Origin: a virus | Length of the DNA: 64,000 nt | Virus record (IMG/VR): IMGVR_UViG_3300008963_000727 | Coordinates: 1-64,000 of that record | Direction: 5' to 3' (one strand) | Shown here: positions 25,526 through 39,980 of the stretch, one piece after another | How positions within the stretch are numbered: position 1 is the stretch's first letter | Layout of the letters: every line of letters begins with the position of its first letter | Program-made: the position numbers and the translations under genes | Notes under the pieces: model-generated | Databases searched by the model: none | Told to the model about the DNA's origin: nothing | The model's input: the letters and a program-made list of their open reading frames with translations, nothing else

Positions 25526-27580
25526 ATGAAGTGGATAACTCATTGGACAACGGCTCTCATAACCTTAATCTTAATTCTATCTATACACTACAGTGATGGG
25601 TTTATCACCGAGACGCTTCGCCTTAAACAATTTGACCTACTACAACAAACCGATCCCGTTCAAGTTTCCAAAGACATTGGCGTTGTTACTATTGATGAGG
25701 ATGCAATAGAACGATATGGACAATGGCCTTGGAGCAGGGAAACTATAGCAGATATAATATGGCAGTTGAGAAAAGATGGGGCAGGTGTAATTGTACTTCC
25801 TATTTTATTTTCAGAAATTGACAGGTTAGGGGGTGATGAGTATCTTGCTGAAACCCTTGAAAACAACAGCATAGTAATATCACAAACAGGCACACAGAGG
25901 TATAGTCAAAACTCTGTTCCAAGAGGCATCGCAAAAATAGGCGAACCTGTGCCCTATCTATTCCAATGGCAAGGCGTTTTGGGTCCTATTCCAGAGCTAG
26001 GAAAAGCAGCAGATGGTGTGGGCGTTATCAATACAGTTCCTGAGATAGACGGCGTTGTTCGCAGAGTGCCACTTCTTATGCGAGTAGAAGACGAGGTGTT
26101 TCCCTCTTTGGGAGTAGAAGTTATTAGAGTAGCAACAGGCCAACCATCTTATCAAGTAAAAGAATCTGGATCGGGAATAGAGGCAGTCCGAGTTCCCGGG
26201 TTTCCCATAATAAACACAGACCCCAATGGAAGAATATGGTTACGATGGAATAAAAAATTCCCCACCATATCTGCAGCAGAATCTGACTTTTCAGAGTTTC
26301 AAGGCAAAACTGTAATCATTGGTGCTCAAGCCGCAGGGATAAGTGGTATCATAGCCTCCCCAACAGGACCAAGATATAATTACGAACCCGCAGCAGTAAC
26401 TTTACAAACACTTATTGACGGCGAACAAATTGAGCGTCCTTACTGGGCATTTCAAGCAGAACTTGCATCTACTCTTGCGTTAGGCTTGGTGGTTATTGTT
26501 CTTGGAAGATTCACGCCTTATTGGGTAGTGGGTATAGGAATGATTGCACTTAGTGCCACACTTGTATTCGCTGTAGATTATGCTTGGTCTAACTATTTGT
26601 ACATGCTTGATGGTACAATGCCTCTTGCTGCATTAATTCTTGTTGGATTACACTCAGTATTTCTTCGCTTTGTGAAAGAATTTAAAGAAAAACAAGCAAT
26701 TAAAAAGCAATTTTCTGGATATGCTTCCCCACAAGTTGTAAAACTACTTCAGACCAATCCTGATTTAATCAAACACGGCACAAAAAAGAAAATCACAACC
26801 GTAATGACTGATCTCCGAGGATTTACTCCTCTAAGTGAAAGTTTTGGTGATGATGTTCAAGGTTTGACGCGTATGATGAACTCATATATGGATGCAATAT
26901 CCAAGCCCGTTCTTGAAAGTAATGCCATGATTATCAAGTACATTGGTGATGCAACCATGCATATTCACAATGCACCGATAGATGACGATATGCATGCTAC
27001 AAACGCTGTATCCACCGCATTAAAGATGTTATCTGCAGTTGATCGGTTCAATGAGCATTTGACAGAACAAAATAAACCACAAATTGGAATGGGTGTAGGA
27101 ATTAATACTGGTAAAGCCTATATGGGAGAAATTGGTAGTACTCAGCGTCACAGTTATGATGTATTGGGTGATAGTGTTAATGTTGCCGCTCGTTTAGAAG
27201 GACAATCAAAGTCCTATGGCGTAAGAATAGTCACAGGTTCTGAAACCGCTCATTTAACATACAAACAGTTTTTCTATCTGGAGTTAGATAAAATAGCAGT
27301 AAAAGGAAAGAGCAAACCGTTAAAAATTTACACGGTATTAGAACACGCCGAAAATACACCTGACGAATATTTTGATGCAAGAGAAAAGCATGATCGTATG
27401 TTAGAGATGTATCGCATTAAAAACTTTGATGAAACAATTACATTATGCAATGAGTTGTGTGGAAGTTTTGATGGTGCCATGGATGCTTATTATGATTTGT
27501 GGATAGAGCGTTGTAAATTTATGCTTGCCCAAGATTTGCCATCTGATTGGGATGGCACATTCACAGCAACCAGCAAATAA
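25526..27580 (+). CDS. CHASE2-domain class III adenylate/guanylate cyclase
   Basis: 684 residues: one N-terminal membrane helix, an extracytoplasmic CHASE2 domain (about residues 40-305, with DIGVVTIDEDAIERYGQWPW), three more membrane helices (~310-385) and a cytoplasmic class III catalytic domain (~415-605). The metal aspartates D429 (MTDLRGFT) and D475 (KYIGDATM), and SYDVLGDSVNVAARLEG with the transition-state Asn and Arg, are intact. The K and D of the substrate pocket favour ATP. It would make cAMP in the host in response to an envelope signal. Bacterial genes of this type often follow a fecR gene, as here. Confidence 0.92.
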   Translation: MKWITHWTTALITLILILSIHYSDGFITETLRLKQFDLLQQTDPVQVSKDIGVVTIDEDAIERYGQWPWSRETIADIIWQLRKDGAGVIVLPILFSEIDRLGGDEYLAETLENNSIVISQTGTQRYSQNSVPRGIAKIGEPVPYLFQWQGVLGPIPELGKAADGVGVINTVPEIDGVVRRVPLLMRVEDEVFPSLGVEVIRVATGQPSYQVKESGSGIEAVRVPGFPIINTDPNGRIWLRWNKKFPTISAAESDFSEFQGKTVIIGAQAAGISGIIASPTGPRYNYEPAAVTLQTLIDGEQIERPYWAFQAELASTLALGLVVIVLGRFTPYWVVGIGMIALSATLVFAVDYAWSNYLYMLDGTMPLAALILVGLHSVFLRFVKEFKEKQAIKKQFSGYASPQVVKLLQTNPDLIKHGTKKKITTVMTDLRGFTPLSESFGDDVQGLTRMMNSYMDAISKPVLESNAMIIKYIGDATMHIHNAPIDDDMHATNAVSTALKMLSAVDRFNEHLTEQNKPQIGMGVGINTGKAYMGEIGSTQRHSYDVLGDSVNVAARLEGQSKSYGVRIVTGSETAHLTYKQFFYLELDKIAVKGKSKPLKIYTVLEHAENTPDEYFDAREKHDRMLEMYRIKNFDETITLCNELCGSFDGAMDAYYDLWIERCKFMLAQDLPSDWDGTFTATSK

Positions 27581-38067: not shown

Positions 38068-38095
38068 GATCAGCAATAAATAATATTGTATGATC
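38068..38095 (+). promoter_or_regulatory. Late promoter inside a start-codon hairpin of the homing endonuclease
   Basis: GATCA-G-CAATA (38068-38078) pairs with TATTG-TA-TGATC (38084-38095); the ATG at 38090 lies in the 3' arm and ATAAATAA (38076-38083) in the loop side of the 5' arm. A late RNA starting at about 38089-38090 would be leaderless and free of the hairpin. Confidence 0.58.
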
Positions 38096-38914
38096 CATCA
38101 AAAAATAATAAAGTTAGTAAATCAAGGCTACCTCAAAAAAGATATTCCAGAAATTTTAGGAGTATCATATAGTTTGGTAAGAAAGGTTTCAAAAGGCATT
38201 GAGAGTAAAAATCGTTATGCATCAAGAAAAAATAACAATCCAGTAATAAATGCCAATTGTCAATATTGTGGTAAACTTTATAAAACAAAAGTATCTTTGC
38301 GTCAGCATGAAATACGGTGTAAAGAAAACCCCGACAAAATAAAAGTTAAACCTTCATATGGAATGTTAGGTAAGGAGGGAAAAGGTTCTAATCAGTTTCT
38401 AAAAGCAGAAAGATTAAATCAGCCAAAGCCTGTCGTCTCCGAAGAAACTAGAAAAAAAATATCAGAGGCGAGTAAAAAAAGAGTATGGACGACTGAACAA
38501 AAGTCTAATCATTCTAAATCTATGTTGAAAGCCGTTGAAGATTATCCTGAATCATATTCGGTGAATAACATTATTGGTAGAGTTAAACAAATTGAATACA
38601 GGGGAATTCTCTTAAAAGGTAATTGGGAAGTTAAGACCGCAGAGTGGCTAGACTTTAATAAAATAGAGTGGCAATATGAACATTGTTCTTATCCCTACAT
38701 TTTTGAGGGCAAAGAACGGCGTTATTTTCCAGATTTTTATTTGCCAGAGTATGATTCTTATTTGGAAGTAAAAGGATTTGAAACAGAACAAGATCGGGCA
38801 AAGTGGAATCAATTAACAGCAAATCTTGTAGTTATTGATAAAAAAGTAGTTGACAATTTGTATGATTATAGTATAATGCAACTATTGAATGAACATAAGT
38901 TTTTGGGACCATAG
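38090..38914 (+). CDS. PD-(D/E)XK-type homing endonuclease
   Basis: 274 residues. A helix-turn-helix-like N-terminus (LKKDIPEILGVSYSLVRKVS), a C2H2-like zinc finger (CQYCGKLYKTKVSLRQHEIRC, residues ~57-77) and a NUMOD-type motif with VSEETRKKISEASKKR. The C-terminal nuclease has RRYFPDFYLPEYDSYLEVKG, the PD...E-x-K core, as in vsr-like free-standing endonucleases. Its last 10 bases form the 5' end of the tRNA-CAT. Placement against a tRNA is typical of mobile endonucleases. Confidence 0.85.
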   Translation: MIHQKIIKLVNQGYLKKDIPEILGVSYSLVRKVSKGIESKNRYASRKNNNPVINANCQYCGKLYKTKVSLRQHEIRCKENPDKIKVKPSYGMLGKEGKGSNQFLKAERLNQPKPVVSEETRKKISEASKKRVWTTEQKSNHSKSMLKAVEDYPESYSVNNIIGRVKQIEYRGILLKGNWEVKTAEWLDFNKIEWQYEHCSYPYIFEGKERRYFPDFYLPEYDSYLEVKGFETEQDRAKWNQLTANLVVIDKKVVDNLYDYSIMQLLNEHKFLGP

Positions 38915-38982
38915 TTTAATTGGTTAAAACCCCGTCCTCATAAGACGCGTGAGTCTCAGTTCAAATCTGAGTGGTCCCACCA
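38905..38982 (+). tRNA. tRNA with CAT anticodon (Met, or Ile if modified by TilS)
   Basis: 78 nt with CCA. Acceptor GGGACCA with TGGTCCC, anticodon stem CGTC-CTCATAA-GACG, T-loop GTTCAAATC, A73. CTCATAA occurs in both elongator Met and tRNA-Ile2. A TilS-like gene at 45655 makes lysidine-modified Ile2 plausible. The 5' end overlaps the homing endonuclease stop. Confidence 0.9.
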
Positions 38983-39004: not shown

Positions 39005-39154
39005 TATAACGATACACACTCAGGGTTGCGTTCAGTGTACAAGACATGAACGGTAAATGTACTAGAACCATCGGGAGTGGCTTCCCGACTGCACTATACA
39101 GACCCTGCCAAATCCTAGGCTATCGGGCAATAAAAATGAGTGTGTATTGTTATG
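39005..39154 (+). ncRNA. Structured RNA A, closed by an 18-bp stem
   Basis: 39005-39022 pairs with 39137-39154, all 18 positions (two G-T wobbles). Inside are a TCGGGA/TCCCGA hairpin (39071-39088), a GTTC-A-GTGTAC / GTAC-TA-GAAC arm (39029-39069) and GCC/GGC around 39107-39120. About 150 nt, no ORF, directly after the tRNA-CAT. It lacks recognisable tmRNA, 6S or RNase P motifs. Resembles in position the stable RNAs C and D of the T4 tRNA region, but similarity was not tested. Confidence 0.75.
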
Positions 39155-39171
39155 GTGTCATCAATGCAATT

Positions 39172-39266
39172 TTTTAGTATAGAGACTGAAACACTCTGCA
39201 GGGTGTTCCTTTCGGTGGAGGAAGTTTACCTTTAGAGGGAAAAACCGAACAGTCTCTATTCTAAAA
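39172..39266 (+). ncRNA. Structured RNA B, three-way junction
   Basis: TTTTAG-T-ATAGAGACTG (39172-39188) pairs with CAGTCTCTAT-T-CTAAAA (39250-39266), 16 bp with one T-T mismatch. Inside: ACACTC-TGCA-GGGTGT hairpin (39191-39206) and TTCGGT (39211-39216) with ACCGAA (39244-39249). About 95 nt. Confidence 0.72.
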
Positions 39267-39282
39267 CATTGTTATCATTGAC

Positions 39283-39392
39283 AAGATGACTGCTGAAATG
39301 GGAGTAGCCGGGTTCGATTCCCGTGCACCCGGTGGCCGGTGATAAAAAGGTAGCTCCGCTCGGTGGTTCAACTCCACCCTGTCAGTCATCTT
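39283..39392 (+). ncRNA. Structured RNA C with two T-arm-like hairpins
   Basis: AAGATGACTG (39283-39292) pairs perfectly with CAGTCATCTT (39383-39392). Inside lie CGGG-TTCGATT-CCCG (39309-39323) and GGTGG-TTCAACT-CCACC (39362-39378), both with tRNA T-loop sequence and 7-nt loops, and AGC-TCC-GCT. No anticodon arm or CCA in the usual places. About 110 nt. Confidence 0.72.
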
Positions 39393-39429
39393 CTCAATGG
39401 TTTTAAAAGTAAAAAAATAGGAAAAATTT

Positions 39430-39876
39430 GTGATTGAAGAAACCGAAGAACCCGTAGTACGAATTCATCCACTTGAAAAGAAATCAGTGGATTATTTGGT
39501 TGAGATGTTTCAGAAAACACCTGAAGGTAATGTGCGTGGGTTTGATGTCACAGAGACTTACCGCTGGGGTCAGGGATTTGTTCCCGAAGAAGACATGGAT
39601 TGGGTTGAGGAAGAAGAAGTAGCAGTGTGCGACCCTCAACATGGATGGGGAGCAGAACTGGACGACCTTATCGCAGTATCCGTAGAATTCCATGGCGAAT
39701 TTGATTCCGAAGAACGAGATTATATTGAACAGTTATGCACTCGTGAAACAGAAGACGCTGATGGTCTTACAGGTTTGGAGTGGATCTTTGGTGGTGAGCA
39801 TGATTGGGAAGTGGATATGGAACAGATTCTAATTCGAGCACCTTTTGTTATAGACAAAGGCGAAGAAGACACTTAG
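39430..39876 (+). CDS. Acidic hypothetical protein
   Basis: 148 residues, GTG start after AGGAAAAAT. Very acidic (DMDWVEEEEVAVCDP, EFDSEERDYIEQ), aromatic WGQGF and HDWEVDME. No motif. It is the only coding gene between the structured RNAs. Confidence 0.72.
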   Translation: MIEETEEPVVRIHPLEKKSVDYLVEMFQKTPEGNVRGFDVTETYRWGQGFVPEEDMDWVEEEEVAVCDPQHGWGAELDDLIAVSVEFHGEFDSEERDYIEQLCTRETEDADGLTGLEWIFGGEHDWEVDMEQILIRAPFVIDKGEEDT

Positions 39877-39894
39877 TTTAAATATTAAATCATT

Positions 39895-39980
39895 ACCCCC
39901 TGTTCCCGACAGCGGTCTTCTAAACCGCTTCCTTAATGTTGGGTGGAAGGTGCAAGGTTCAATTCCTTCAGGGGGTGCCA
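39895..39980 (+). tRNA. tRNA-Arg (TCT)-like RNA lacking a D-arm
   Basis: Acceptor ACCCCCT (39895-39901) with AGGGGGT (39970-39976), discriminator G, CCA. Anticodon arm AGCGGT-CTTCTAA-ACCGCT (39911-39929) with TCT. T-loop GGTTCAATTCC. Only nine bases separate acceptor and anticodon stem; there is no D-arm. Instead CCCGAC (39905-39910) pairs with GTTGGG (39938-39943), extending the anticodon helix. May be a truncated tRNA, a tRNA mimic or a fourth structured RNA. Confidence 0.7.

Follow-up and report, generated by a model that had tools for sequence, protein, structure and literature searches.

RNA A, encoded beside a tRNA gene of a large uncultured phage, is a folded, non-coding RNA of ~150 nt. 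The 64,000 nt stretch of DNA analysed here (the window) comes from an IMG/VR record of 194,522 bases, and the features of the locus are listed in Table 1. RNA A lies in a non-coding gap and begins 22 nt past the 3' end of tRNA-Met(CAT). An endonuclease gene (phrog_15137) is encoded directly upstream of the tRNA and overlaps its start; no relative of the gene was found in the syntenic locus of contig L044, and it is probably a homing endonuclease insertion. Relatives of the flanking protein encoded at 39430-39876 were searched for and none were found, and no reverse transcriptase, the hallmark of retrons, was present among the scanned proteins neighbouring RNA A in the window. The only same-strand ORF across RNA A is of 43 aa and the length differences among members of the family are not multiples of three, which together rule out a coding gene.

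The first-pass annotation of this region had drawn attention to an uninterrupted 18 bp helix with two wobbles, closing ~115 nt with internal hairpins, and had judged it very unlikely to arise by chance. Folding and a direct stem scan agreed on this closing stem, P1, in which TATAACGATACACACTCA and TGAGTGTGTATTGTTATG form 18 consecutive pairs, two of them G-U, around ~115 nt; it was the longest + strand stem in the 13.5 kb scanned. The minimum free energy of RNA A was -53.4 kcal/mol compared with a shuffled mean of -33.99 (z -5.08), and none of 200 dinucleotide shuffles folded as well, in line with the original judgement. The description of the interior was accurate insofar as interior helices exist, but incomplete, as the interior comprises P2 to P6 together with highly conserved single-stranded segments. 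P1, P2 and P6 share a junction, the linkers of which measure 0, 0 and 9 nt, the last being AAUAAAAAU, whilst P3 and the P4/P5 arm lie beyond P2. Nucleotide A39022 is able to pair in either P1 or P2.

Table 1. Features of the RNA A locus and of related loci (positions refer to the window unless a contig or phage is named)
Feature	Position	Strand	Evidence or description
RNA A, whole	39005-39154	+	Fold z -5.1; model R1 match 39007-39152, 142.6 bits, this copy being among the model's own sequences; relatives in at least 18 other contigs
P1 5' arm	39005-39022	+	Double-sided changes in 15/15 aligned pairs; 98.3% of cells paired, 16 copies
P1 3' arm	39137-39154	+	Covariation, 16 copies; 17-24 uninterrupted bp in 14/16
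P2 5' strand, AGGGUU	39022-39027	+	100% of cells paired; AU to GC and GC to AU swaps
P2 3' strand, GACCCU	39101-39106	+	Covariation, 16-copy alignment
P3 hairpin, CGUUCA...UGAACG	39029-39052	+	6/6 pairs double-changed; 98.9% of cells paired
P4/P5 arm, UGUACUAG ... CUAUACA plus apical hairpin	39058-39100	+	Covariation
P6 hairpin, GCC-AAAUCCUAGGCUAUCG-GGC	39107-39128	+	GCC/GGC stem invariant in 16/16 copies
A-rich single strand, AAUAAAAAU	39129-39137	+	Conserved; P6-to-P1 linker
tRNA-Met(CAT), upstream neighbour	38905-38982	+	ARAGORN, Rfam
RNA B, second stem-closed RNA	39173-39265	+	Stem TTTAGTATAGAGACT/AGTCTCTATTCTAAA around ~63 nt
RNA C	39284-39393	+	Long stem around two T-arm-like hairpins
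Endonuclease gene	38090-38914	+	phrog_15137
tRNA-like gene	39894-39978	+	Anticodon TCT
Large protein	25526-27580	+	Resembles phage proteins with an adenylate/guanylate cyclase annotation
RNA at the place of RNA C, L044	2149-2319	-	22 bp stem; three T-arm-like hairpins
Three other RNAs, L191	4076-4250, 5881-5961, 6081-6154	-	Same 15 bp closing stem
Stand-alone abiF RNA, L022	3624-3655	-	
Stand-alone abiF RNA, L330	4120-4151	+	
Stand-alone abiF RNA, L240	3180-3211	+	
Stand-alone abiF RNA, L246	6242-6273	-	
Stand-alone abiF RNA, phage Acj61	77202-77237		

An exact 21-mer search identified five viral contigs with RNA A, and gapped conserved-core patterns identified at least 18 besides the window. 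With the window counted, there are at least 20 copies in at least 19 viral contigs, the others being L001, L002, L003, L004/L198 (one contig), L005, L021, L022, L044, L191, L193, L195, L199 (two copies), L202, L205, L257, L304, L306 and L330. A covariance model of RNA A, R1, was built from 12 copies; when 473 kb were searched with it, the only matches were the four copies that had not been used in its construction (E-values 1.3e-36 to 1.3e-21). Covariation in related phages, which the first-pass annotation had proposed as a check, was abundant. Across 37 base pairs in 16 aligned copies, 96.9% of cells were paired, and double-sided compensatory changes occupied 95 cells against a shuffled mean of 22.7, a level reached in none of 500 shuffles. 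As a control, partners were slid by 1-3 columns, and pairing fell to 26-42%.

The compensatory changes extend through the interior helices. P2 exchanges AGGG/CCCU for GAGG/CCUC across copies, and P3 exchanges CGUUCA/UGAACG for UACUCA/UGAGUA, amongst others. In P4, 88.4% of cells were paired and four of seven pairs were double-changed in the 16 copies, with a single pair occurring as AU, CG and UA. P5 was scored on the 12-copy alignment, in which all three of its pairs were double-changed; it should be noted that these pairs do not form in the window copy. Compensated stem changes also separate the window copy from that of L044, which is closely related to the window phage (flanking proteins ~90% identical). 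A pseudoknot between CCUAG of P4 and CUAGG of the P6 loop was considered and found to be unsupported on inspection, as column 63 covaries with column 109 within P4 and the pseudoknot pairing is broken in the L205 and L001 copies.

The RNA A alignment contained 28 G-U and 2 A-C cells, an excess that identifies the + strand, that of the tRNA, as the functional strand, and in each of the nine carriers that have tRNAs, RNA A has the same orientation as they do. These observations bear on the reading that RNA A is a DNA-level element, such as a cruciform or a recombination or mobility site, with the fold as a by-product. Such an element would be in keeping with the perfect inverted repeat formed by the closing stem, with the change of neighbouring genes from contig to contig, and with the presence of endonuclease genes close by in the window and L191. 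However, the ratio of G-U to A-C, the covariation of P2 to P5, the conservation of the loops and the constant agreement with the tRNA strand argue against it, and we regard it as the least probable of the readings weighed here. There is good support for RNA A being a real, conserved, structured and strand-specific RNA that belongs to no family described before.

The first-pass annotation had recognized no known RNA class in this sequence, and Rfam gave the same answer at both gathering and permissive thresholds, ruling out a known class. Only tRNA reached the gathering score in the window, only tRNA and abiF were matched in the carriers, and permissive scans of RNA A and two relatives returned noise only, with no abiF match. 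RNA A is not itself an abiF RNA, as the RF03085 model did not match it at permissive E-values, whilst the neighbouring RNAs in L022 and L330 do match. Nor is it a tRNA or tmRNA: ARAGORN and Rfam called the neighbouring tRNAs only, and the fold has no T-arm.

Structured RNAs of this sort are already known from phage tRNA arrays (T4 rnaC/rnaD, ROOL and GOLLD), and the RNA A family matches none of them. The earlier comparison with the T4 stable RNAs holds for position in a tRNA region; rnaC (species 1) and rnaD (species 2) are also small, of similar size to RNA A, and located inside a phage tRNA cluster. The likeness does not extend further, as the T4 RNAs fold differently, rnaC having a T-arm-like hairpin that RNA A lacks, and the best score of R1 against T4 was 12 bits (E 0.47), outside the rnaC/rnaD site.

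A distant blastn search of 50,697 cultured-phage records found no convincing match to RNA A; a match in S-CAM7 (E 8) was rejected, as R1 does not match it and its position is annotated as a coding gene. No match was found in plasmids or E. coli genomes, or in sets of 369, 399 and 385 proteobacterial genomes, where few candidates were scored per genome and without a positive control. RNA A was likewise absent from 30 Abi_2 loci, and a bacterial origin was set aside on the basis of the three genome sets and these loci. A pattern scan of genome contigs gave no RNA A closing stem among the matches listed.

RNA A is carried by unrelated phages. The terminase of G009 (262 kb) is T4-like and closest to those of Pseudomonas jumbo phages of ~285 kb; the terminase of G013 is closest to those of 37 kb Vibrio phages; and one window gene is closest to the myophages Methylophilales phage Melnitz and Pelagibacter phage HTVC008M. 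A large protein encoded in the window is similar to the Melnitz/HTVC008M proteins annotated as adenylate/guanylate cyclase.

RNA A is found among tRNAs in the window, L022, L044, L191, L193, L195, L199, L202 and L330, with 21 tRNAs in L191 and 10 and 20 in L193 and L202, respectively. Similar closing stems, TTTAGAATAGACACT/AGTGTCTATTCTAAA, surround different interiors in L022, L191 and L195, and a related form of this stem closes RNA B of the window, the closing stem of which resembles that used by other carriers for RNA A and other RNAs. In all, similar stems of 13-17 bp close several unrelated interiors in the RNA A arrays. Because similar stems enclose different interiors in the same arrays, the sequences suggest a shared processing rule for the array RNAs, most simply the cutting of long stems by RNase III. 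The 21-tRNA array of L191 contains three other RNAs with one and the same closing stem, and an RNA with three T-arm-like hairpins occupies the place of RNA C in L044.

ROOL, GOLLD and the T4 species 1 and 2 RNAs are suspected of acting in the takeover of host translation. RNA A could similarly act on the tRNA and translation side, binding a tRNA-processing enzyme, the ribosome or an RNase during that takeover. Such a role would be in keeping with the embedding of RNA A in tRNA arrays on the same strand, and with the T-arm-like hairpins in other RNAs of these arrays. ROOL and GOLLD are also structured phage or prophage RNAs found near phage tRNA islands, and they form RNA-only complexes (PMC12286853), although both are far longer than RNA A, GOLLD often exceeding 800 nt. 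Against this role, RNA A lacks a T-arm and any other tRNA-like element, and 10 of the 19 carrier contigs contained no tRNA in the stretch examined, several of these stretches being short. We consider a tRNA or translation role rather unlikely, but it is the main rival to the reading that we favour, that of an antitoxin or decoy.

The nearly invariant portion of RNA A consists of the P6 hairpin loop and the A-rich linker. The highly conserved loop is 16 nt in length, is AAAUCCUAGGCUAUCG in most copies, and contains the self-complementary hexamer CCUAGG. Variants of the hexamer are UCUAGA in L330, UCUAGG in L304 and CCAUGG in L001, whilst L306 has CCUAGG with another flank; self-complementarity is retained in every copy, through two double changes and one G-U. 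Because 43% of random 16-mers contain a self-complementary 6-mer, only this maintained covariation counts as evidence. The self-complementarity of the loop is compatible with a kissing dimer or with a capped inner hairpin.

Phage sRNAs that pair with mRNAs or titrate an RNA chaperone exist, and the conservation of the single-stranded loop and of the AAUAAAAAU linker would be expected if RNA A paired with host or phage mRNAs, or titrated a host RNA chaperone, through these segments. However, phages whose genes are unrelated, and whose hosts presumably differ, have nearly the same loop; a conserved protein or RNA partner would account for this more readily than a variety of mRNA targets. In addition, RNA A was unmatched in E. 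coli genomes. We therefore think a regulatory sRNA of this kind improbable.

A structural or packaging RNA has also to be weighed. The pRNA of phi29 has a terminal helix, a junction and loops through which separate molecules can pair, as in RNA A, and the long terminal helix, junction and loop of maintained self-complementarity could in principle build a loop-held dimer or ring with P1 as a handle. RNA A has no Rfam match, however, and its carriers include phages of different lineages with standard large terminases; where the context is known, RNA A sits among tRNAs rather than packaging genes. This reading strikes us as highly improbable.

The most telling association of RNA A is with abiF RNA. 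In L022, an exact 32/32 match to abiF RNA (RF03085) lies between tRNA-Asn and RNA A, and in L330 an abiF RNA is located ~50 nt downstream of RNA A; the adjacency is thus seen in two carriers. No Abi_2 (AbiF/AbiD) gene, the kind of gene that an abiF RNA precedes, was matched in 14 carrier records or in the L330 locus, and of 14 viral contigs with abiF RNA, 13 had no Abi_2 gene close to it. In L240 and L246, abiF RNA follows tRNAs. Amongst cultured phages, the T4-like Acinetobacter phage Acj61 has a stand-alone abiF RNA with a compensated stem, and cyanophage S-CREM1 has already been reported to carry an abiF sRNA (PMC9964418). Motifs of abiF make up the antitoxin RNA of the defence toxin AbiF, which is inhibited both in cis and in trans, and RCd22, an RNA antitoxin built on abiF motifs, neutralizes AbiF in trans (PMC12373285). 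RNA A bears a loose likeness to abiF RNA in its hairpin flanks, GCCAA...AUCGG(G)C, but is four times longer and has a long closing stem.

The association with abiF RNA leads us to infer that part of these arrays consists of RNA antitoxins or decoys, RNA A among them. We propose that RNA A is a stem-excised phage ncRNA that acts in trans as an antitoxin or decoy against an RNA-regulated host defence toxin, and give this reading a probability of about 0.4, given that RNA A falls outside the abiF family and that the bacterial searches yielded no copy. According to this model, RNA A would be transcribed on the tRNA strand within the tRNA-array transcript, and double-strand-specific cleavage in P1 would excise it, as RNase III does with rRNA precursors. 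Excision would leave a compact and presumably stable RNA, with its highly conserved P6 loop and the A-rich linker exposed to a partner, most likely an RNA-regulated defence toxin that is of the host or host-resident. RNA A would then act on this toxin in trans, as the abiF RNA next to it in two carriers does for AbiF, and the self-complementary P6 loop could allow it to work as a dimer. In a broader version of the model, phage tRNA arrays would double as sets of RNA counter-defence modules, sharing one excision rule and having interiors that mimic the antitoxin RNAs of different RNA-regulated host toxins; this is conceivable, and we hold it to be doubtful.

Ever since T4 rnaC/rnaD, the stable RNAs of phage tRNA clusters have lacked an explanation. 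For RNA A there are now a structure backed by covariation, a covariance model and numerous natural variants, which make the question testable, and the link to stand-alone abiF RNA provides the hypothesis that phages carry RNA antitoxins as anti-defence agents. The occurrence of abiF RNA next to RNA A in two carriers may reflect a phage toolkit of RNAs against bacterial defences. If so, orphan phage RNAs would expose RNA-gated defence toxins not yet discovered, and RNA A, if a counter-defence module, would be a sign of a toxin-RNA defence system still to be discovered.

Other RNAs of these arrays deserve mention. In L022, L330, L240, L246, L242 and L250, the abiF motif stands at the head of a longer RNA, ~200 nt in length, which is itself conserved. 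Another conserved RNA adjoins RNA A in L001, L195 and L199; by eye, its 3' half, UUGUAAGUC..GAUAAUG..GGACUACCCG, resembles that of the abiF-headed RNA and its 5' domain differs, as if domains had been swapped on one scaffold. Finally, the window contains an unusual tRNA-like gene with anticodon TCT, which was missed by ARAGORN and scored below the cut-off of the tRNA-Sec model; at the same place, L044 has an ordinary tRNA-Arg(TCT).
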